From contig JAUIHS010000007.1 of assembly GCA_030432255.1 (NCBI GenBank), positions 1 through 64,000 of the forward strand: DNA of 64,000 nucleotides. Direction: 5' to 3'. Source of the DNA: Phycisphaerae bacterium. Its GTDB lineage: Bacteria > Planctomycetota > Phycisphaerae > Phycisphaerales > UBA1924. Position 1 is the stretch's first letter, and each line of letters begins with the position of its first letter. The translations under genes were made by a program, and so were the position numbers. The notes beneath the pieces are model-generated. The model saw nothing but the letters and a program-made list of their open reading frames with translations, was not told the origin of the DNA and did no database searches. This document shows positions 53,483-64,000 of the stretch, in pieces.

Positions 53483-54637
53483 ATGGACAATCAAAGACGT
53501 GTGACAGTGATGGGCGGAATTCCCGCCCACAACCTCTCGCTCTACCGCAAGATCCGCTTCAAGGTGGGCGACCCGGCGTCGGTCATTGAGATTCCCGGTC
53601 GGGGGACGGTGCTGGTGATTCGCGACATCGAGATGGAACGCGCGCGCCAGCATGCACGGGCTGACGAGATCTTCTGTCCCGCGGACTTTCCTCCGAAGGG
53701 CGAGCCACTCTCGGGTGACCGGGAGATTGCGACCGCCCAGGCGACAGCCGTGTGTCTTGAGCGTGCCGGTATCGGCGAAGTCTGGACAGACCGGTCGCTT
53801 CCGATGATCTTCGCCCACGAGATGACGCGACTGGGCATCACGGTTCGCTGCGATCCCGACATGGGCGTGGTCGATCGCCGCTCGAAGGATGCCCAGGAGA
53901 TTGAACTGCTGCGCGATGCTCAGCGTGTCACTGAAGAGGCCATGGAGATGGCATGTCGCCTGGTTGCCCGCGCGACTGCGGGGGCCGATGGGGCGCTGAA
54001 GTCGGATGGCGAGACGCTCACGAGCGAAGGCGTGCGTCGGCGGATCGATACGTTCCTGCTGGAGCGTGGCTATGTGAATCCTCCATCGATCGTGGCCGGA
54101 GGTCCGAACGGTGCCGACTGTCACAACCTCGGTTCCGGGACCCTCTACACTGGGCAGCCGATCATCATCGACATCTTTCCGCAGAACAGGGAAACGCTCT
54201 ACAACGGGGACTGCACGCGAACGGTTGTTCACGGTGAAGTTCCGGAGGTTCTCCAGGAGTGGCATCGAGCAGTTGCGGAAGCCAAGGCGGCCGCCATCGG
54301 CGCGACGCGGGCGGGCGTGACGGGAGAGGCGGTTCATGCGGCGACGGCGGAAGTGATCCGGGCCCACGGTTATGACATGGGATTGCCGGGTCCGGATGCG
54401 CCGCCGACCTATACCGGCATGGTGCATGGAACGGGGCACGGCGTCGGCCTCGAAGTGCATGAGCCTCCATTGCTGGATCGCAGGGGTCCGGCGCTTGTTG
54501 TCGGGGATGCGCTGACGATCGAACCCGGGTTGTATTGTCATGCCACTGGCGGGATGCGCATCGAGGACATGGTCATCGTCACCGATGACGGCTGCATCAA
54601 CCTCAACGAACTCCACGAAGGGCTGGACTGGTCGTGA
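53483..54637 (+). CDS. M24 family metallopeptidase (Xaa-Pro aminopeptidase-like)
   Basis: 384 residues. The pita-bread domain shows all five ligands: Asp in PIIIDIFPQN, Asp in NGDCTRTVVHG, His in GTGHGVGLEVHEPP, Glu in ALTIEPGLY and Glu in GMRIEDMVIVTDDG. The N-terminal 130 residues form a creatinase-like lobe. Family members remove N-terminal residues preceding proline (PepQ/PepP) or act on other small peptides. Cytosolic. A strong ribosome binding site, GAGAGGAG, sits just before the ATG. Close to the preceding gene, convergent with comM. Confidence 0.92.
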   Translation: MDNQRRVTVMGGIPAHNLSLYRKIRFKVGDPASVIEIPGRGTVLVIRDIEMERARQHARADEIFCPADFPPKGEPLSGDREIATAQATAVCLERAGIGEVWTDRSLPMIFAHEMTRLGITVRCDPDMGVVDRRSKDAQEIELLRDAQRVTEEAMEMACRLVARATAGADGALKSDGETLTSEGVRRRIDTFLLERGYVNPPSIVAGGPNGADCHNLGSGTLYTGQPIIIDIFPQNRETLYNGDCTRTVVHGEVPEVLQEWHRAVAEAKAAAIGATRAGVTGEAVHAATAEVIRAHGYDMGLPGPDAPPTYTGMVHGTGHGVGLEVHEPPLLDRRGPALVVGDALTIEPGLYCHATGGMRIEDMVIVTDDGCINLNELHEGLDWS

Positions 54638-54644
54638 TCCGAAG

Positions 54645-56192
54645 TCAGATGCGACGGTCGAGCAGCCGGTACTGGATTGCTTCGGCGATGTGACCGGCGG
54701 AGATATCGTCGTCTCCCGCGAGGTCGGCGATCGTCCGGGAAACGCGCCGTAACTTGTCATAGGCACGCGCCGACAAGCCAAGTTCGGACATCGCACGACC
54801 GAGCAGTTGTGATGCGTCATCGCGAAGCGGCGCCAGTTCATCGAGATCCCGGCCCGGGAGTCGGGCGTTCAATCGGGCGCCCTGGCGTGCGTGTTGACGC
54901 CGACGGGCCTCAAGGACGCGTTCGCGCATGCTCGCTGTGCAGGTGCCGTTCGGGCGCGATCGCAACTGCTCCCACGGAATCGCCGGAACTTCGACGTGGA
55001 TGTCGAGACGATCGATCAGGGGGCCGGAGACCCGCGCCAGGTAGCGGTCCATGGATCGCTGAGAGCCCTCGTTCTCTGGCATGTATCCAGAGGGCGTCGG
55101 GTTCATGGCCGCGATCAGCATGAAGTCGGCCGGGAACTGGAGGGCGGCCTGGGCACGACAGATCGTGACGTTCGAGTCTTCGAGTGGTTGACGCAGCGTA
55201 TCGAGCACGTTGCGCGGGAACTCAGGAAGTTCGTCCAGGAACAACACGCCGCGGTGCGCCAGCGAGATTTCGCCCGGCCGGGGTATCATGCCGCCGCCGA
55301 TGATCGCTGCCGCGGATGCAGTATGATGCGGTGCGCGGACCGGTCTCGACGAGACCAGTCCTCTGTCATCCGGGAGTTTGCCCACCGCCGAGTAGATCCC
55401 CGTGACTTCGATGGCTTCATCGGGTGACATCGGAGGCAGGATCCCGGGGAGCGCCTTGGCCATCATCGATTTGCCCGTGCCCGGCGGGCCGAGCATGAGC
55501 AGGTTGTGGCCGCCGGCCGCCGCGACCGTCATCGCGCGTTTGACGGCCTCCTGGCCGCGCACCTCCCGGAAGTCGATCTCGGCGGTCGTCGACTGGATCA
55601 ACTCCGCGACGTCCACCGGTGCATGCGGTTCGCCTTCAACGCTGCCGTTGATCAGGCCGACAACATGGGCCAGGGTTCCGGCGGGGTGCACGTCGATGCC
55701 ACGCACAATCGCCGCTTCTGCCGCGTTCTCTACGGGAACGACGATGCCCGACGCTCCGGCGGCACGGGCGAGGCGCGCCAGGGCGATGGCGCCGCGAATG
55801 GGGCGCAGGCGCCCATCCAGCGCCAGTTCGCCAGCGAAGACCAGATCACGGAAATCGAGGCCTGCGAAGTCCGCGCGCTGGGCAGGGTGATCAGGGGCCG
55901 CCCGGATGGCTCCGGTGGCCACCAGGATCCCGACCGCCATCGGCAGGTCGTAGACCGGGCCTTCCTTTCGCACGTGAGCCGGCGCGAGATTGACCAGCGT
56001 CCTGCTCTTGTGCAACTGGTAGCCGCTGTTCCCGATTGCCGCCCGGACGCGATCCACGGACTCCTTGACCGCCGCATCCGGCAGGCCCACGACCGCGTAT
56101 CGCTCGTCATCGGAGTCCACGAGGTCCACCTCGATCTCGCATCGGGTGGCATCCACGCCCTGTAGAATGAAACTCTGTACCCTCGAAAGCAT
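54645..56192 (-). CDS. comM: ComM/YifB family AAA+ (Mg-chelatase-like) protein
   Basis: 515 residues. Starts MLSRVQSFILQGVDATRCEIEVDL, contains VGLPDAAVKESVDRVRAAIGNSGY, the AAA+ core GPPGTGKSMMAKALPGILPP (Walker A), VLFLDELPEFPRNVLDTLRQPLEDS and the C-terminal SARAYDKLRRVSRTIADLAG. ComM drives branch migration during natural transformation; in other bacteria the role is less clear. Start ATG 56192 fits family alignments; ATG 56201 adds three residues. No Shine-Dalgarno is obvious, but a minus-strand TATATT near 56225-56230 may be a -10 box. Diverges from the methyltransferase by 65 bp. Confidence 0.92.
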   Translation of the reverse strand: MLSRVQSFILQGVDATRCEIEVDLVDSDDERYAVVGLPDAAVKESVDRVRAAIGNSGYQLHKSRTLVNLAPAHVRKEGPVYDLPMAVGILVATGAIRAAPDHPAQRADFAGLDFRDLVFAGELALDGRLRPIRGAIALARLARAAGASGIVVPVENAAEAAIVRGIDVHPAGTLAHVVGLINGSVEGEPHAPVDVAELIQSTTAEIDFREVRGQEAVKRAMTVAAAGGHNLLMLGPPGTGKSMMAKALPGILPPMSPDEAIEVTGIYSAVGKLPDDRGLVSSRPVRAPHHTASAAAIIGGGMIPRPGEISLAHRGVLFLDELPEFPRNVLDTLRQPLEDSNVTICRAQAALQFPADFMLIAAMNPTPSGYMPENEGSQRSMDRYLARVSGPLIDRLDIHVEVPAIPWEQLRSRPNGTCTASMRERVLEARRRQHARQGARLNARLPGRDLDELAPLRDDASQLLGRAMSELGLSARAYDKLRRVSRTIADLAGDDDISAGHIAEAIQYRLLDRRI

Positions 56193-56257
56193 GCGAGGCA
56201 TGTTACCGGGATCATTGACGGTGTTCAATATATGTTTGCACAACAAAATGGGATTAA

Positions 56258-57019
56258 ATGGAATCTGATGTAATAAGGTCAGGTCGGTTTTCAGATCGCG
56301 CCGATGTCTACGCAGCCTCCCGGCCGTCGTATCCCTCCGAGGCGATCGATCGAATTCTTGCCGGTGCACCGAGGAATCCCGTAGTCGCCGACATCGGCGC
56401 AGGGACAGGAATCGCGTCACGCCTGTTCGCCTCAAGAGGCTGCCGAGTACTCGCGGTGGAACCGGATGCGGCCATGCGCCGGAGGGGATCCGAGGCGGCA
56501 GATGGTGGTGACATCACATGGTGCGACGGGACCGGAGAGGCGACCGGACTTCCCGACAGAGCCGCCGACATCGTGGTTGTGGCGCAGGCTTTCCACTGGA
56601 TGGATGGGGCACGGGCCGTTGACGAGTTCTGCCGCGTGCTTCGTCGTCCCGGCCGCGTTGCGCTGATGTGGAATGTTCACGATGTGACCGTACCGGTCAT
56701 GGCGCGCTATCGTGACATCATGCTGCAGCACGCCACCGATCCTCCTCGCTCGCCCTGGTACTCCGGGTTCAACGACGCGCTGGCGTCGACATCCGATCGA
56801 CTCACGTTCAGCGTCGAGCGCTTTCCCTGTGAACAGCGCGTCTCGAGGCCGGGCCTTCATGGTCGGGCGATGAGTTCATCCTACATTCCGCTTGAGGGAA
56901 ATCCGGGGCATGATGAACTGGTCGTCGCCCTCGATGCCCTGTTCGATGACGAGGCGTCAGATGACGTCCTGACGCTGCACTATGAGACGAGCGTGTACAT
57001 CGCGGCGGTGGAGGCATGA
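56258..57019 (+). CDS. SAM-dependent class I methyltransferase
   Basis: 253 residues. Rossmann methyltransferase: VADIGAGTGIASRLFASRG (motif I), VLAVEPDAAMRRRG, VVVAQAFHWMDGARAVDEFCRVLRRPGRVALMWN. The YAASRPSYP start and FHWMD core recall the UbiE/Coq5 and related families often annotated as methyltransferases of unknown substrate. It has no Shine-Dalgarno, and the AT-rich upstream region (56215-56257) may give a nearly leaderless mRNA. It overlaps the truncated haemoglobin gene by 4 bp, so the two are probably co-expressed. Confidence 0.85.
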   Translation: MESDVIRSGRFSDRADVYAASRPSYPSEAIDRILAGAPRNPVVADIGAGTGIASRLFASRGCRVLAVEPDAAMRRRGSEAADGGDITWCDGTGEATGLPDRAADIVVVAQAFHWMDGARAVDEFCRVLRRPGRVALMWNVHDVTVPVMARYRDIMLQHATDPPRSPWYSGFNDALASTSDRLTFSVERFPCEQRVSRPGLHGRAMSSSYIPLEGNPGHDELVVALDALFDDEASDDVLTLHYETSVYIAAVEA

Positions 57020-57420
57020 TGGGCGTGTTACCCGGTGGATTTGGTCCGGAGCGCACGCCCTACGATGCGATCGGGGGCGACACCGAAGTGCGTGCGCTCG
57101 TGGATGCCTTTTACGACCATGTGCAGAGTGACTCGCCGCACGTTCGCGGCATGCATCCGGAGGACGACACGACCTCCCGCCAGAAACTGTACGAGTTCCT
57201 GAGCGGTTGGCTGGGTGGTCCTCCGCTGTACATCGAGCGCCACGGGCACCCGAGGCTTCGGATGCGTCATGCGCCTTTCCCGATCGACGGGAAGGCTGTC
57301 GAGGAATGGTTGATGTGCATGTCAGCGGCCATGGATGATCGCGGCATCGAGGGTGAACTGCGTGCATTCCTGGACGAGCGCTTCTCGCACGTAGCTCATT
57401 TCATGAAGAACACCGGATGA
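57016..57420 (+). CDS. glbO: Group II truncated haemoglobin
   Basis: 134 residues, typical for trHbO. TPYDAIGGDTEVRALVDAFYDHVQSD, HGHPRLRMRHAPFPIDGKAVEEWLMCMSAAMD hold the proximal His (RMRHAPFPI), and FYDHV and the WLMCM Trp at position G8 match group II. It binds O2 and may scavenge NO or peroxides; the partner reductase is unknown. Start at ATG 57016 (ATGA overlap with the methyltransferase stop) or at the next codon. Follows the methyltransferase; the transglutaminase-like gene follows after 109 bp. Confidence 0.94.
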   Translation: MMGVLPGGFGPERTPYDAIGGDTEVRALVDAFYDHVQSDSPHVRGMHPEDDTTSRQKLYEFLSGWLGGPPLYIERHGHPRLRMRHAPFPIDGKAVEEWLMCMSAAMDDRGIEGELRAFLDERFSHVAHFMKNTG

Positions 57421-57529
57421 CCATTCCACACTTCAGTCGATATCGGTGGGAACCGGGCATCCTGGCTCGCGTCAGACTGCAGTGGGGGACAGGGTGTCCC
57501 TTCGGACTCACCAGACGAGGAGAAGAGTC

Positions 57530-58744
57530 ATGATCTCACGGTTGATCAGGAACGGGCGTCGCCATCTGAGCGGAGTGCTGGTGGCTGGTGCGTGCGTCGG
57601 ATCGCCGGTATCTGCTGGCGACAATTCCGTCCTCCAGCGTGATGAGTCCAATTGTCAGGAGTGGACTGTGCACATCGAGGTGCGCCTCCACCCGTGGCAG
57701 CCGAGGGTCCGCCAGGATGAGCACATCCAGTCCACTCGATACCTCACCTTCCGCGAGGGCGCCATCGTCTTTCCGCTCCTCAATGGGAGTGCGTCTCATG
57801 ACACTGAGGCAGCCAAGGCGAAGAGCAAGTTGAACATCGACAACCGGGTCGCATCGGACGAGCCACGACTGATCAGCGGGCGTCAGGCAGGAACGCAGAT
57901 CGGCGTCTGGGAGATGCATGATGTCAACACACGGGATCTGAACCTGCAGCTTGACATCCCGATGAAGTGCTATGAGACGAAGATCGACGAGCGCCGCGCA
58001 TTCGAGATTCCCTGGCCGGTCGACACGGAGTGGAACGACGAGATCGCGTCCGCTCTGAAGCCCCAGCTCTACGTCGAGTCGGATGATCCTGCGGTGCGCG
58101 CACTCGTTGAGAAGTGGACCAACGGCAAGCCGAAGAAGGTCAAGCCGTACTTCCTGGCCAAGTACCTCGCGGCGAAGACGCTCGAGCATGTTCAGCCCTC
58201 CGGTAACAAGTACGCCACGGACTCGCGCGGACCCAAGGTCGGCACTTTCACGTCGATTTTCTTCAGCGGTTTCGAGATGGAGGGAGCGGCGGTGGCCGCG
58301 AAGACGGGTCGCGGTCGACCGTACGACACGGCGAACCTGCTTGCCGCGGTGTACCGAGCGGCAGGCATTCCGGCGCGCCTGGTGATCGGTTACGACACCG
58401 AGTTATCGAAGAAGAACGAGCGTCCCGAGTTCCGGCCCTGGGTTGAGTTCTACCTCTTCGATGAAGCACGTGACGAGGGCGAGTGGATCCCGGTCGACAT
58501 CATCAAGCAGCGCGAGTTCAGTTCACGTGCCCCGCAGATCGAGCGTCCGTGGGAGTTCTTCGGCACCAACCGCGAACTCGACACCATCTGCCCCGTGGCC
58601 TATCACTGGCATCCGCCGACGACCGTGCAGAGCGCCGGTGCACCCGCGCTCTGGGGCTGGATTGCAGTGCCCGGCAACCCGCGCGCCGATCAGGAACTCC
58701 GCATCTGGGCGCAGCACACCGTCAAGCGCGGCGGTCAGCGCTGA
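57530..58744 (+). CDS. Secreted transglutaminase-like protein without catalytic residues
   Basis: 404 residues. Signal peptide (LSGVLVAGACVGSPVSAG) followed by a beta-rich N-domain and a transglutaminase-core-like segment: GRGRPYDTANLLAAVYRAAG then IPARLVIGYDTEL and RPWVEFYLFDEARDEGEW...PVDI. The order matches transglutaminase-like domains, but the catalytic Cys position holds Pro (RPYDTA), and the His of HAWVE is replaced (RPWVE). The Asp region is kept. So the protein probably lacks the usual activity and may bind peptides or act structurally. GAGGAG lies 8 bases before the ATG, which fixes the start. It converges with astD. Confidence 0.82.
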   Translation: MISRLIRNGRRHLSGVLVAGACVGSPVSAGDNSVLQRDESNCQEWTVHIEVRLHPWQPRVRQDEHIQSTRYLTFREGAIVFPLLNGSASHDTEAAKAKSKLNIDNRVASDEPRLISGRQAGTQIGVWEMHDVNTRDLNLQLDIPMKCYETKIDERRAFEIPWPVDTEWNDEIASALKPQLYVESDDPAVRALVEKWTNGKPKKVKPYFLAKYLAAKTLEHVQPSGNKYATDSRGPKVGTFTSIFFSGFEMEGAAVAAKTGRGRPYDTANLLAAVYRAAGIPARLVIGYDTELSKKNERPEFRPWVEFYLFDEARDEGEWIPVDIIKQREFSSRAPQIERPWEFFGTNRELDTICPVAYHWHPPTTVQSAGAPALWGWIAVPGNPRADQELRIWAQHTVKRGGQR

Positions 58745-58750
58745 GCGACG

Positions 58751-60286
58751 TCAGAGCCAGGTGTCATCCCATGTCATTCCGGGCGGCGTCGGGGCGGCAT
58801 CACCGGTCTCGATCATGCTGGCGACCGGGTACGCGCAGTAATCGAGCGCATAGGCCCCGGCAGGGCGATGGTTGCCGGAACGCCCGATTCCACCGAAGGG
58901 CAGCTTGCCCGATGCGCCCGCGGTGCCGGTGTTGACGTTGATGCAGCCGGCGCGGCACTCGGTCATGAAGCGTCGCTGCGCTTCCGCGTCCTGGGTGAAG
59001 ATGGATGCCGCGAGGCCATAGCGGGTGCAGTTCACGTTGGCCATGGCGTGATCCCACTCGCTCGTGCGTGCGACACGGACCAAGGGACCGAAGATCTCGA
59101 CATCGCGACCGGCGTGGTTGGAGTGGCCGGAATCCTCCCAACTGAAGTGATCAACGGCCATGATACCGGGAGTGAGGTAGTGGCCCTCGCCATCGAGGTC
59201 CAGCGCGCGGGACTCGACAATTGCATCCCCATCGGCAGACCCCTGGAACTCAAGGACGGCATCACGCGCTTCTGCTGTGATGATGGGGCCCATGAAAACC
59301 GGTGGATCAGAAAGGGGGTTGCCGACGGTGATTGTCCTGGTGATGTTCGTGAGCAGGTTGATGAAGCGGTCGGCAACATCGTCGTGCACGATGATGCGGC
59401 GCGTGCACGTGCAGCGTTGGCCCGTGGTGACGAAGGCCGCGCGGGCGCACTCGATGGCAGCCTGCTTCAGGTCGGCATCAGGCATGACGAGTGCCGCGTT
59501 GTTGCCGCCCAGTTCCAGGGCGACCATCCGCTCCGGCCGGTCGAGATTGGCTTCGAGGATCTTGCGTCCGACCGGCCAGGAACCCGTGAAGAGTATGCCT
59601 CCAACGTCTCCGGCCATCAGAGCCTGTGCGATCTGGGCTCCACCCTGCACAAGGCTGAAGGTGCCGGGCGGCGCGCCGGCGGCACTGAGTGCATCGATGT
59701 ACATCTCCGCAAGGAGCTGGCCGCAGGCGGGTGTCTTGTCGGACGGCTTGAAGATCACCGTGTTGCCCATGAGAAGTGCAGGCGCGATATGTCCGTTCGG
59801 CAGGTGCATCGGGAAGTTGAATGGTCCGAGTACCACCAGGGGTCCGTGCGGTCGGAAGTGACAGGCGCCCCGGCGTGTCTCGGTGAGAGGAACCTCAAAG
59901 GGTTCCACGCGCGATCGTCCGGTGTGCGCGCCCTCTGCCAGCGTGATGTCGATCTTCCCGGCAAGCAACCCCGCCTCGGCGCGGGCGTCCCAGTGTGCCT
60001 TGCCGGTCTCGCGGCAGATCAGGTCCGCTGCTTCTTCGACGCGTTCCTTGGCAATGCTCTGAAACGCGCGGAGCGCTTCAATGCGCTTTTCGATCGGAAA
60101 CGACCCCCATATTCCCTGTGCCCGGCTCGCACAGTTCACCGCATCTTCAGCGGACGATGTGCTTGAGGCGCCATGCCAGACGATCTCGTCGGGTCGGGCC
60201 GGGTTGCGCGACACGATGTCGCCTTCGTCGAGTGGCAACCAGTCCCGCACGAAGTTGGCGGGCGGATGTCGAAGAGGAGCGGTCAT
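58751..60286 (-). CDS. astD: Succinylglutamate-semialdehyde dehydrogenase
   Basis: 511 residues, about 20 longer than typical AstD. GACHFRPHGPLVVLGPFNFPMHLPNGHIAPALL, FKPSDKTPACGQLLAEMY, LELGGNNAALVMPDADL and TTGQRCTCTRRIIV (nucleophile Cys) are typical, and FGPLVRVARTSEWDHAMANVN follows. The N-terminal RDWLPLDEG and WFLASP-like segment differ from ordinary aldehyde dehydrogenases and match AstD. It oxidises N-succinylglutamate semialdehyde to N-succinylglutamate in arginine breakdown. Starts 4 bp after the astA stop; AGGA precedes the ATG. Last gene of the operon in the direction of reading. Confidence 0.92.
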   Translation of the reverse strand: MTAPLRHPPANFVRDWLPLDEGDIVSRNPARPDEIVWHGASSTSSAEDAVNCASRAQGIWGSFPIEKRIEALRAFQSIAKERVEEAADLICRETGKAHWDARAEAGLLAGKIDITLAEGAHTGRSRVEPFEVPLTETRRGACHFRPHGPLVVLGPFNFPMHLPNGHIAPALLMGNTVIFKPSDKTPACGQLLAEMYIDALSAAGAPPGTFSLVQGGAQIAQALMAGDVGGILFTGSWPVGRKILEANLDRPERMVALELGGNNAALVMPDADLKQAAIECARAAFVTTGQRCTCTRRIIVHDDVADRFINLLTNITRTITVGNPLSDPPVFMGPIITAEARDAVLEFQGSADGDAIVESRALDLDGEGHYLTPGIMAVDHFSWEDSGHSNHAGRDVEIFGPLVRVARTSEWDHAMANVNCTRYGLAASIFTQDAEAQRRFMTECRAGCINVNTGTAGASGKLPFGGIGRSGNHRPAGAYALDYCAYPVASMIETGDAAPTPPGMTWDDTWL

Positions 60287-60290
60287 GGAG

Positions 60291-61442
60291 TCATCCTGTC
60301 TTGCGTGACTTGCGGGAGCGCGCGGCGGGCTTCTTCTCAGACGAAGCGCTCGCCTCGTCCTCCGGGGCGGTCTGGGCCTTCATCGCCGCCTGTGTGATGC
60401 CCAGATCCACCGGTGTTGCTGCGACGATTGCCGCGTCTTCGATCCGCAGCATCCGCGCGAATCGATCGGGGAGGCGCAGGCGGCCTCGGTTCACGGCGTA
60501 GCTCGTGTAGCAGGCCCGGAAATCACCATTCTCACCAGACGCCGAGACGAAGCCCTTGAGGCGAGTCTCCGATGCTCGACATGTACCGCCGTAGCGAACC
60601 CTCGCCGTGTCCCGGACCAGCGGCACCTCATCCGTGGGCGCTTCGAGGTGCGGCCCGCCATCGAAGGGATCGATGCGATGAACGTACTCGAAGCCGAGGT
60701 CCTCCAGCATTCGTCGCGCAGGCATGGTCTCGTGGCCGACCTGTGCGACGTGCTTGCGCGCGAGTGGGGGAAGGAAACTCAGGTAGATCTCCTCGCGCGG
60801 CAGGAGCGATGTCATGAATTCGCGCGAGTGCGTGCAGAACCGATCGGCCTGCTGGTAGGGGAGATTGATGAAGCGACGCCCGAAGTTCTCCCAGAAGACG
60901 CTCCGGCCGTCGGGTGCTGTTGCCGCGAGCATCTCGGCGAGCAGGTGATCGGAGAAAATCTCACGATGCAGGCCGATGAAGTGGAATCGAATGAGCGAGA
61001 GTTGCTTGCCAAGCTTGGCCGGATGGCGCCGGAAACTCGGGCCGAGCATGAGGCCGCCGAGTTCTGTCGGGCTGGACTCATCAAGATAGAGCTGTGCCGT
61101 GATGTGGGAGGTACCGGTCTGGAGGTCGGTGCTGAAGAACTCGCGGCGCCGGAGTGTGAATGAAAGGTTCGGATTACCCGGTCCCCCCATTCGCGCGATG
61201 ACGCCGGATGTGCCGAGAGGCGCATTTCGGCGGGTATCCTCGATGACAAAGAAAAAGTAGGGACTGGGCTTGATGGTTGCCAGCGCCGCCTTGTCTGAAG
61301 TGGAGCGGAATGACTTGCGACTCTGCGAGATGCGTTCGGAGAGGATGGTCTTGTCTGCGGGGAGGTTCATGAAGTGAACCATCCGCGCCAGCTTCAGCAC
61401 GAGGTCAAGGTCATCCTGTCGGGCCTGTCGAATCAGGAACAT
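60291..61442 (-). CDS. astA: Arginine N-succinyltransferase
   Basis: 383 residues. AstA transfers succinyl from succinyl-CoA to arginine, the first step of the AST pathway. MFLIRQARQDDLDLVLKLARM, FFVIEDTRRNAPLGTSGVIARMGGPG, SPTELGGLMLGPSFRRHPAKLGKQLS and PYQQADRFCTHSREFMTSLLPREEIY follow the family. The C-terminus carries a basic tail of about 30 residues (KKPAARSRKSRKTG) beyond the usual end near 345. Sits between astD (4 bp) and the aminotransferase (7 bp). High confidence. Confidence 0.95.
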   Translation of the reverse strand: MFLIRQARQDDLDLVLKLARMVHFMNLPADKTILSERISQSRKSFRSTSDKAALATIKPSPYFFFVIEDTRRNAPLGTSGVIARMGGPGNPNLSFTLRRREFFSTDLQTGTSHITAQLYLDESSPTELGGLMLGPSFRRHPAKLGKQLSLIRFHFIGLHREIFSDHLLAEMLAATAPDGRSVFWENFGRRFINLPYQQADRFCTHSREFMTSLLPREEIYLSFLPPLARKHVAQVGHETMPARRMLEDLGFEYVHRIDPFDGGPHLEAPTDEVPLVRDTARVRYGGTCRASETRLKGFVSASGENGDFRACYTSYAVNRGRLRLPDRFARMLRIEDAAIVAATPVDLGITQAAMKAQTAPEDEASASSEKKPAARSRKSRKTG

Positions 61443-61449
61443 GGGATCC

Positions 61450-62916
61450 TCACACGCTCACCTGGGAGGCGGTGGTGCTCATGGCGCTGGTCACCACATC
61501 AAAGACGTCCTTCCACTGTTCCACCGGCATCGCGCCGAGCGGAGGCAGGAAGCGAACATGATAGGGTCCATGACCGCAGTAGAATGCGATGACGCCCGCT
61601 TTGAAGAGTTCGTGGCAGAGATGCAGGATCGGCTCCTTCTCACCGCCGAAAGGCGTGAACCGCATCATCCCTCCGAAGCCCGCCACGACATCGTGATAGT
61701 CATCGCCGTGAGGGAACCACTCGGGATGAGCGGCGGCCAGCGCCCTCACGCGGGACTCAAACTCACGATAGTGCGCAACGATACTGCCATCAGGGCCGTA
61801 GTACCCGCCGTCGCGCAGCCGCTCGATGATCCGGCGTCCGACCTTCAGTCCGACGGCTGAGCCCAGGAACGTGCCGGAGAGCAGCCCGGGGCGTGGGTTG
61901 TAGTTGTCGGTGTAGAGTGCGGCGCAGACCTGTGACATCTTTCCGACGCAGGCCACGTCGACCATGTCGCCGAGACCAAGCGCATCGAAGCAGAACATGC
62001 GCTCCGTGCGACCGAAGGTCTGCACCTCGTCCGCCCACACTGCGATCTCGTTGGCCCGGCAGACATCCATGAGCGCCCGGTGGAACTCGGGAAGAGCCGT
62101 ATTGAATCCGCCCTCGCCCTGCACCAGTTCGAAGATGAAGCATGCGTGCTGCTTCGGATAGCGCTCGATGTACTGTTCCAGGTGTTCGACGCAGATGTCG
62201 ATGTAGCGGGTGGAGCCGGAGACATCCCCGGCACTCATGCGGCGGGCCGCGACGTGACTGTAGAAGGGCATGTAGTCGACCAGCGTGCTCAATGGGACAC
62301 CACTGCGTCCGCCAGCCGAGTCTCCGATCTGCGCCATGGTCACGCTTCGTCCCATGAAGCAGTGCGCGAAGGCGATGACTCGACTTGCCGGTGCGTGCTT
62401 CTGGTAGCACACCTTGAGCGCATTCTCATTCGCCATCGCCCCCGAGTTGCACAGGAAGGCGTGCTTCAGATCGGATGACTTTCGAGCTTCGGCGACAAGC
62501 ACCTCCGCAAAGCGGATCGCTTCCTCGTTCATCATGAGATGACCCTGCATCACCGTGTCCGCGGTGGCCGCTTCCACGGCAGTTTCCACAAGGTCTGGAT
62601 CAGAGTGGCCAAAGAAGTGTGCGCCGATGCCCGTGATCATGTCAAACTTCACGGAGCCATCCAGCAGTTCGACCAACGCTCCGTTTCCGATCCCGGAGCC
62701 GAGGTACGGGTACAGGAGGCCTCGGCCGCGAACCTCGGTGGCATCCTTCATCACCTGGTCGAGGCACTGAGAGAGAGAGGGATCGGTTGCGGGTCGAACG
62801 CCGGTGATGTCGGCCTGGGCAGAACGCAGTTCGGCGCCGATCGTCTCAATGGCACTTCGAACGGCAGGACGGTGACGGAACTGGTCGGCGAGAGTCATGG
62901 AGTTGGTGGTCGTCAT
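61450..62916 (-). CDS. Class III PLP aminotransferase, unlike classical AstC
   Basis: 488 residues, longer than the roughly 400 of AstC. The fold type I core reads HAFLCNSGAMANENALKVCYQKH, YFIFELVQGEGGFN-type FIFELVQGEGGFN, WADEVQTFGRTERMFCFDAL and the PLP Lys in CVGKMSQVCAALYTDNY. The VGK-x-SQVC pattern is nearer to L-lysine 6-aminotransferase (Lat: GKKTQVC) than to ArgD/AstC, and there is a 60-residue N-terminal extension. In this operon the expected role is succinylornithine transamination to succinylglutamate semialdehyde, but that is by context. Starts at ATG 62916. An M20 hydrolase gene lies 69 bp upstream. Confidence 0.82.
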   Translation of the reverse strand: MTTTNSMTLADQFRHRPAVRSAIETIGAELRSAQADITGVRPATDPSLSQCLDQVMKDATEVRGRGLLYPYLGSGIGNGALVELLDGSVKFDMITGIGAHFFGHSDPDLVETAVEAATADTVMQGHLMMNEEAIRFAEVLVAEARKSSDLKHAFLCNSGAMANENALKVCYQKHAPASRVIAFAHCFMGRSVTMAQIGDSAGGRSGVPLSTLVDYMPFYSHVAARRMSAGDVSGSTRYIDICVEHLEQYIERYPKQHACFIFELVQGEGGFNTALPEFHRALMDVCRANEIAVWADEVQTFGRTERMFCFDALGLGDMVDVACVGKMSQVCAALYTDNYNPRPGLLSGTFLGSAVGLKVGRRIIERLRDGGYYGPDGSIVAHYREFESRVRALAAAHPEWFPHGDDYHDVVAGFGGMMRFTPFGGEKEPILHLCHELFKAGVIAFYCGHGPYHVRFLPPLGAMPVEQWKDVFDVVTSAMSTTASQVSV

Positions 62917-62985
62917 GATTCATTCCGGAGAAAATGGGGGGCGTCGTGGGGGATCCTTGATCGTCATCGGAGTGAAGTGCGGCTT

Positions 62986-64000
62986 CTACTCGTTCCACTC
63001 CTCAGTCAGTCGTACGATCAAGCAGGCCATGAGCTGGGCACGCTCCACCAGGCTCGCGAGTTCGATCCACTCGTCCGTTGTATGCAGCCCGCCGCCGCGG
63101 ACGCCGAGTGTATCGATCACAGGGAGTCCGGCGGCCTGCAGGATGTTGCCGTCGCAGACGCCGCCGGTCTTCTCGAAGGGAAGCGACTGTCCCAGCGCTT
63201 CGGCGGCACCCTTCGCCATTGATGCGAGGCGCTCGACCGCCGGAGTCGTCGGCTTGGCCGGACGATTGAAGGTGCGCTCCACGACGATTCGCGGCAGTTC
63301 GTCTCCCTGTGTGGCGAGTGCATCCATGGCCTTGCCAAGTTCATCGGCGGTTTGTTCGTCGGGAAATCGCACGTTCCCCCATGCCGCGGCGTGATCGGGC
63401 ACAACATTGGTGGCTCCTCCCCCGGATATCGGACCGACGTTGACGACGATGCCCCTCTCGGCATCCGAGAGGTGTGAGAGTTTCACCAGGACTTCCGCGA
63501 GCGCGTACACGGCGGAGACACCATCGGTGAACGCGCGCCCGGCGTGAGCGGAGCGCCCGTGTGCTTCGATCATGAACTGACCTGCACCGCGTCGCTGGAT
63601 CGCGAGCGCCCCACCGGGCAGGCAGGGTTCGGTCACGAGGCCGACGTCCGCGACTCGGGCTTCCGCTGCGAGTGTTCCTGCCGAGGCAAACGAGCCGGTC
63701 TCTTCATCTGAGTTCAGGACGAAGGTCCACGAGGCTTCGAAGCCGACGGCGTGCAGCGCTTCGAGCGCGGTGACCGCGATCAGCACCCCACCTTTCATAT
63801 CTACGACCCCGGGCCCCACAGCGACATCGCCATCAGGGGAGATGATCATCTCCGTGAAGTCGCCCTGCGGCTCGAAGACGGTATCGAGGTGCCCGACGAG
63901 GAGGATCCGGGGCTTGCCATGGACCGGCCTCCGGCAGATGACGGTGGGGGGGATCTCATCCGGGTGCTTCGGTCCCGGGAGCCAGTCCGGTCTTGTCTCA
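62986..64000 (-). CDS. M20-family peptidase/deacylase (5' partial, runs off the right edge)
   Basis: About 337 codons are visible; the frame stays open to the window edge, and the start lies outside. Zinc ligand motifs: LLVGHLDTVFEP (His), GPGVVDMKGGVLIAV (Asp), NSDEETGSFASAG (two Glu) and TEPCLPGG. The following dimerisation lobe contains GRSAHAGRAFTDGVSA and the C-terminal half ends in GVRGGGLHTTDEWIELASLVERAQ, with the last His ligand. It resembles carboxypeptidase G2 and ArgE/DapE-type deacylases. In this operon it might take the AstE role of removing succinate from succinylglutamate; inference only. Ends in TAG. Confidence 0.87.
   Translation of the reverse strand, partial: ETRPDWLPGPKHPDEIPPTVICRRPVHGKPRILLVGHLDTVFEPQGDFTEMIISPDGDVAVGPGVVDMKGGVLIAVTALEALHAVGFEASWTFVLNSDEETGSFASAGTLAAEARVADVGLVTEPCLPGGALAIQRRGAGQFMIEAHGRSAHAGRAFTDGVSAVYALAEVLVKLSHLSDAERGIVVNVGPISGGGATNVVPDHAAAWGNVRFPDEQTADELGKAMDALATQGDELPRIVVERTFNRPAKPTTPAVERLASMAKGAAEALGQSLPFEKTGGVCDGNILQAAGLPVIDTLGVRGGGLHTTDEWIELASLVERAQLMACLIVRLTEEWNE

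Follow-up and report, generated by a model that had tools for sequence, protein, structure and literature searches.

A four-gene operon in the order M20 hydrolase, aminotransferase (AT), AstA and AstD lies at the end of a 64,000-nucleotide stretch of the genome of a Phycisphaerae bacterium (assembly GCA_030432255.1, contig JAUIHS010000007.1, positions 1 to 64,000; this whole stretch, G000:C118:1-64000 in our records, is called the window). The genome assembly, at 94.4% completeness, totals 4.54 Mb across 122 contigs. Very probably, the operon belongs to a version of the catabolic arginine succinyltransferase (AST) pathway that relies on substitute enzymes, in which AT would stand in for AstC, M20 for AstE and a ureohydrolase (URE) for AstB, in whichever order succinylation and urea release occur. 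On the narrower proposal that URE acts on N-succinylarginine after AstA, our judgement is evenly balanced. The fullest form of the proposal has, in our estimate, slightly less than an even chance of being right: URE would be an N-succinyl-L-arginine amidinohydrolase that has repeatedly traded places with AstB in Phycisphaerales, AstC and AstE would have been replaced too, so that three of the five AST steps would depend on other enzymes and some of the arginine nitrogen would be released as urea and not as ammonia, and M20 would supply the desuccinylase that AST operons of at least two phyla lack. The observations behind these statements are the gene content, its order and conservation, the absence of AstB and of any full AstE match, the mutual exclusion of AstB and URE among genomes searched for the two, and the conserved catalytic residues; from them we infer all substrates as well as the release of urea after succinylation. 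To our knowledge, no urea-releasing N-succinyl-L-arginine amidinohydrolase has been described, and no account of this AST variant was found among the matches listed in a search of open-licence PMC papers by title, abstract start or term counts.

In the proposed pathway, AstA would succinylate arginine, and URE, taking the place of AstB, would remove the guanidino carbon of N-succinylarginine as urea to leave N2-succinylornithine. AT would then transfer the delta-amino group of N2-succinylornithine to an oxo acid, AstD would oxidise the resulting semialdehyde to N-succinylglutamate, and M20 would cleave this product to glutamate and succinate.

The preliminary description of this DNA had placed the four genes here, which is borne out by matches to PF04958, Aldedh, Aminotran_3 and Peptidase_M20; they lie on the minus strand, and the intergenic gaps measure 69, 7 and 4 bases. 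Conservation was followed in a phylum sample of 392 searched genomes (G codes) and in a second set of 42 loci or genomes reached through AT relatives in the genome collection (fetched loci carry L codes), with at least one record common to both (L035 is the G319 record). The complete order M20-AT-AstA-AstD is present within the fetched flank of 26 of the 42 AT-related loci, and because the same four genes recur there in the same order, their grouping is not due to chance; synteny, suggested earlier as a check, is thus conserved. The remaining loci hold AT-AstA-AstD (2), M20-AT (4), M20, AT and AstA spread out (1) or AT alone (9), and several of the last end at contig ends. AT-only loci were considered as a separate system, which was rejected, since AstA is found elsewhere in 11 of the 13 genomes whose AT locus has no adjoining AstA. 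In the phylum sample, AstA occurs in 53 genomes and AT (E <=1e-30) in 38, all but one of which (G274) also have AstA. Three relatives (G057, G137 and G381) carry the operon M20-AT-AstA-AstD-AstB; identity to the Escherichia coli proteins is 40 to 49% for AstA, AstD and AstB, and identity to the window's proteins is 34 to 43% for AT and M20. Because of these operons, AT and M20 appear to fill the AstC and AstE slots, and the earlier idea of a mixed AST pathway gains support. At one further locus (L059:8001-9446), the AT match contains a stop when read straight through.

It had been suggested that astB lies beyond the right edge of the window. This did not hold: none was found in the 14 kb past the window (contig read to position 78000), and PF04996 has no match anywhere in this genome, 94.4% complete as it is, while the E. 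coli and Caulobacter controls match. AstB is absent from 16 of the 53 AstA genomes, this one included, and among them is G368, a single contig that is 99% complete. The ureohydrolase that alternates with AstB lies elsewhere in the genome, outside the window, on another contig than the operon (G000:C12:230739-231737, equal to L136:4740-5738), and is 332 aa long. Relatives of URE at 56-100% identity occur in 10 of the 392 genomes, all of them with AstA and AT and lacking AstB; the other matches, in 24 genomes, do not exceed 45% identity, and AstA is present in two of these genomes, G004 and G356. Among the 37 fully searched genomes with both AstA and AT, 25 have AstB only, 10 have URE only, two have neither (G342 and G004) and none has both (Fisher p 1.9e-7, kinship ignored). 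The second set agrees, with AstB in 13 genomes, URE in the flank in 13 and both in none, and all 13 URE loci lie in genomes without AstB.

Position points in the same direction. In six genomes without AstB (G270, G303, G319, G325, G372 and G376), a PF00491 search places a ureohydrolase no more than a few kb from the cassette or from its AstA-AstD portion. In seven loci (L035, L038, L051, L059, L062, L064 and L068), a URE match on the strand of AstD begins 23 to 114 bases after the AstD match, and AstB begins 17, 14 and 23 bases after AstD in L096, L097 and L100, these distances being taken between the ends of tblastn matches and not of genes. The AT tree needs at least 8 AstB/URE state changes over 55 rows, and G407, an AstB genome, falls inside the window's own AT subclade; this is a quick tree with support from the SH-like approximate likelihood ratio test (SH-aLRT) only and 26 of 68 inner branches starred, and the URE tree, with SpeB as its single distant outgroup, is poorly rooted. 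Behind AstD in eight loci without nearby AstB or URE, no arginine enzyme was recognised by eye among open reading frames (ORFs) called with a rough script, and plasmid searches with URE and AT returned only distant relatives among the matches listed. Taken together, these observations lead us to propose that a urea-releasing enzyme has taken over the AstB role in 10 of the 53 AstA genomes, this genome included. As a separate observation, the AstB matches in G333:C1, G205:C73, G327:C6 and G040:C22 each hold one in-frame TAA.

URE belongs to the ureohydrolase superfamily, with 249 bits to PF00491 against a cut-off of 22. H134, D161, H163, D165, D251, D253, H177 and E301 are invariant in 21 of 21 URE sequences and the same in SpeB, and we take them to be the metal ligands and the catalytic His and Glu. 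The agmatinase model TIGR01230, which the other 14 URE members scanned also match, gives 167.4 bits for URE (P0005) against a cut-off of 174.3, and the arginase (RocF) model TIGR01229 gives 50 bits against 227.6, so that neither cut-off is reached. By sequence search, the nearest enzymes of solved structure are 3-guanidinopropionase, proclavaminate amidinohydrolase and guanidinobutyrase, whose substrates have an acid group and lack a free alpha-amino group; plant arginases reach 97 and 89 bits, as against 212. Strong PF00491 matches had been considered as arginases, a label dropped for the guanidino-acid/agmatinase type on motifs read by eye, family models and solved relatives. URE is accordingly classed by sequence as a guanidino-acid/agmatinase-type ureohydrolase, and an assignment as bacterial arginase is not supported. 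K76 is invariant in 21 of 21 URE sequences, is Ala in E. coli SpeB, and aligns with guanidinobutyrase R72 in a sequence alignment counted by hand. This arginine is described as capping the active site of the neighbouring subunit, where it could bind the substrate carboxylate (PMC9772407), and the corresponding loop is said to hold Asn in plant arginases and Glu in a Burkholderia agmatinase (PMC7370999). K76 would therefore fit an acidic substrate (N-succinylarginine or arginine) and speaks against agmatine. The structure model of URE has a mean predicted local distance difference test (pLDDT) score of 76.3, and because residues 73-79, K76 among them, fall below 50, it is uninformative on the cap; the fold matches that rank best, to guanidinopropionase, proclavaminate amidinohydrolase and agmatinase, are tied at Z 34 to 35.

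The first gene of the operon had been read as an M20 hydrolase outside the AstE family, and this reading stands. Both Peptidase_M20 PF01546 (85.8 bits) and PF07687 (70.4 bits) are matched above cut-off, the AstE profile PF04952 has no match in this genome (the E. coli control matches), and the AstE model TIGR03242 gives a partial match of 38.6 bits against a cut-off of 305.65, so the search for a canonical astE elsewhere in the genome gave no full match. Across the 53 AstA genomes, TIGR03242 is over cut-off in none and matches weakly in 10. M20 belongs to NF005602 by a narrow margin (357.7 bits, cut-off 357). Of the 53 AstA genomes, 33 match this family with an E-value no higher than 1e-30, 15 of them above cut-off, and all 33 have AT, with the match within 1 kb of AT by coordinates in 25 of them. 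H102, D104, D132, E164, E165, E189, H217, N263, R276, H371 and E375 do not vary across the 42 aligned rows, which include the window's own protein twice, and R311 is kept in 37; we take the listed residues to have catalytic and metal-binding roles. N-succinylglutamate is an acylated glutamate. The closest solved structure to M20 is that of carboxypeptidase G2 (E 8e-34), an enzyme described as likewise acting on acylated glutamates such as folate, from which it removes glutamate (PMC5082436). A similar arrangement is seen outside the phylum, with the order M20 'hydrolase'-AstA-AstD-AstB on a Legionella adelaidensis plasmid (NZ_LR134438.1; L191, 6944-12338), where the hydrolase shares 36% identity with M20 of the window and no AstE is annotated in the stretch, and with AstA-AstB-AstA-AstD-M20 on one strand of a Novosphingobium humi plasmid (L192, 4079-9924), which has two AstA-type subunits. 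Caulobacter vibrioides, a control, matches AstA, AstB and NF005602 and not AstE, and around an M20 on a Variovorax plasmid, tblastn shows no further AST gene within 6 kb. M20 is therefore a candidate N-succinylglutamate desuccinylase, proposed to replace AstE here and to fill the AstE role in 33 of the 53 AstA genomes of the phylum sample.

AT had been called lysine 6-aminotransferase (Lat)-like. This held for the motif at the pyridoxal phosphate (PLP) lysine, which we take to resemble that of Lat, and failed for the family, as AT reaches 78.6 bits with the lysine 6-transaminase model TIGR03251, whose cut-off is 520.8. Aminotran_3 PF00202 is matched at 142.4 bits, and AT scores higher with the models for gamma-aminobutyrate (GABA) transaminase (121.2 bits) and argD (102.7) than with the lysine model, both also under their cut-offs; the acetyl/succinylornithine family TIGR00707 (102.7 bits, cut-off 410) is not reached. 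With AT 28% identical to E. coli AstC over 242 residues, the operon contains no AstC-type transaminase by family criteria. The active site is nonetheless conserved. In the alignment, K326 of AT corresponds to K252 of AstC and R190 of AT to R141 of AstC, with no variation at either position across 71 rows, and AstC D223, Q226, T281, F138, R141 and the PLP lysine are all kept by AT in all 71. In the crystal, AstC R141 is described as forming a salt bridge to succinylornithine that holds a carboxylate (PMC3590144). Among the fold matches listed for the AT model, the best is AstC (4ade, Z 34.6, root-mean-square deviation 2.2, 339 aligned). AT is thus a proposed N2-succinylornithine transaminase in place of AstC, and may fill that role in 37 of the 53 AstA genomes of the phylum sample.

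AstA matches PF04958 at 265 bits against a cut-off of 29.4 and is the sole match in the genome. The AstD-type dehydrogenase matches PF00171 Aldedh at 347.6 bits, and its best NCBIfam models are succinylglutamate-semialdehyde dehydrogenases, PRK09457 (428 bits, cut-off 514) and TIGR03240 (412 bits, cut-off 579), with neither cut-off reached. AstA columns were tried as a marker of a substrate switch, and none is fixed between the AstB (20 rows) and URE (21 rows) lineages; the largest frequency difference is 0.71, and at column 83, the clearest case, 15 of the 20 AstB rows carry Ser and 15 of the 21 URE rows carry Ala. This favours an unchanged AstA substrate, arginine, and hence a URE that would act after AstA. 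Second AstA paralogues are present at G242:C38:231841-232764 (203 bits), where the gene adjoins AT and M20, and at G325:C14:31673-32740 (54 bits).

Several observations weigh against the reading proposed here. URE in the window's own genome is a lone gene on another contig, its nearest called ORFs being on the opposite strand. Corrected for kinship, the AstB/URE test has only 4 independent pairs, of which 3 are opposite and 1 is a tie (p 0.25), and because of this small number the case rests more on repeated exchange and on position than on the association test; limited to fully searched phylum-sample rows, the AT tree needs only 4 changes. Neither AstB nor URE is present in 6 of the 53 AstA genomes (G342, G004, G061, G221, G354 and G374), and 16 of the 42 genomes of the second set have neither AstB nor a flanking URE, URE having been sought in the flank only. 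M20 is missing in 4 of the 37 AT genomes and is not beside AT in 8 of 33 (G002, G034, G095, G172, G325, G356, G360 and G368). Four control genomes match NF005602, one above cut-off, and because three of the four (Thermus composti, Deinobacterium chartae and Thermotoga maritima) have no AstA match, NF005602 alone is no marker of the AST pathway. AstA itself lies under the cut-off of the NCBIfam equivalog TIGR03244 (175.6 against 391 bits). ArgD (6w7x, Z 34.4) ties with AstC as a fold match for AT, and racemases and GABA transaminases follow about 1 Z behind. Lastly, AstA of E. coli and Pseudomonas aeruginosa is said to accept both arginine and ornithine (PMC12375414), so that a route starting with an arginase would need no visible change in AstA.

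Such a route is a real possibility, though one we doubt. URE would convert arginine to ornithine and urea, AstA of the URE lineages would take ornithine, like AstO of Acinetobacter, and the remainder of the pathway would be unchanged. The ornithine activity just mentioned speaks for it, as does the reported requirement of A. baumannii for AstO in ornithine use (PMC12375414), and an agmatinase-type sequence can be an arginase because plant arginases are described as nearer to bacterial agmatinases (PMC7370999). Against this, URE falls far below the RocF cut-off, its closest solved relatives hydrolyse other guanidino acids and outscore the plant arginases, and AstA shows no fixed change where URE has replaced AstB. 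An operon that serves ornithine only, with no removal of guanidine and with URE as an unrelated agmatinase or guanidinobutyrase, is improbable. While the place of URE outside the operon in this genome, the second ast locus for ornithine described in A. baumannii (PMC12375414) and the two AstA and AT genomes with neither AstB nor URE would suit it, close URE relatives are confined, among the 392 genomes, to those with AstA and without AstB, and in several relatives URE follows close behind AstD.

We consider it highly improbable that the operon serves lysine or another diamino acid through a Lat-type aminotransferase, as had been raised earlier. The motif at the PLP lysine and the appearance of LAT structures among the weak sequence matches of AT (61.8 bits) are what recommends it, and the absence of lysine 6-aminotransferase from the best 50 fold matches listed excludes nothing. 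The lysine model fails, however, 37 of the 38 AT genomes have AstA, homologous ATs stand in operons with AstB, and the family names of AstA and AstD assign them to the succinyl-arginine/ornithine route. Equally, a plain AST pathway whose astB and astE have merely dropped out of an incomplete assembly is barely credible: the genome is indeed incomplete and in many contigs, but AstB is lacking in nearly a third of the AstA genomes, the single-contig G368 among them, and AstE exceeds its cut-off in none. Overall, the earlier interpretation is partly supported, and the AST pathway with substitutes remains the reading we prefer.

Table 1. Genes of the operon, with positions counted from the first base of the window.
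Feature	Position	Strand	Remarks
M20-family hydrolase	62986-64194	minus	402 aa; first gene; 337 of 402 codons inside the window, 194 bases beyond its edge
Class-III PLP aminotransferase (AT)	61450-62916	minus	488 aa; Aminotran_3 PF00202
AstA, arginine (or ornithine) N-succinyltransferase	60291-61442	minus	383 aa; PF04958
AstD-type N-succinylglutamate semialdehyde dehydrogenase	58751-60286	minus	511 aa; Aldedh PF00171; last gene of the operon here

The neighbours of the operon in the window (53483-58744) resemble, by eye, M24 peptidase, ComM-type Mg-chelatase, methyltransferase, globin and transglutaminase proteins, and just past the window (L001:7343-12088) are three tandem genes that by eye resemble tetratricopeptide repeat (TPR)-sulfotransferase proteins.

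These proteins provide candidate enzymes for AST operons without AstE in Planctomycetota, on Legionella and Novosphingobium plasmids and perhaps in Caulobacter, where the M20 protein is annotated just as 'hydrolase', and a candidate for AST cassettes without AstB, whose ureohydrolase scores best with agmatinase models. If true, the exchange of AstB and URE would change the nitrogen product of the pathway, and two unrelated enzymes swapping many times in one operon slot would constitute a clean natural experiment in non-orthologous replacement.

Among known systems, the astNOP ornithine locus of A. baumannii likewise enters by succinylation and is described as using ornithine without need for AstB; its AstC- and AstA-like genes and its permease come in addition to a complete astCADBE, its description names no M20 or ureohydrolase as far as that account goes, and it shows that AstA-type enzymes can serve ornithine (PMC12375414). 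The closest solved relatives of URE by sequence, GbuA, GpuA and proclavaminate amidinohydrolase (3nio, 3nip and 1gq6), differ in substrate, and the cap position holds K in URE, R in GbuA and GpuA and H in proclavaminate amidinohydrolase. We know of none of these three in an AST pathway. Carboxypeptidase G2 (1cg2, 6xj5), the closest solved relative of M20, has its catalytic residues kept in the alignment; it takes folate-type substrates, and the match to M20 is only about 120 bits. The NCBIfam family NF005602 'hydrolase' (PRK07338), which includes M20 narrowly, gives no substrate in its name. Compared with astCADBE of E. coli, the present system has an AT with low identity to AstC, M20 for AstE and URE for AstB, while AstA and the AstD-type dehydrogenase are common to both, and the C-A-D-B order of E. 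coli is paralleled in the relatives by aminotransferase-A-D followed by either B or URE.

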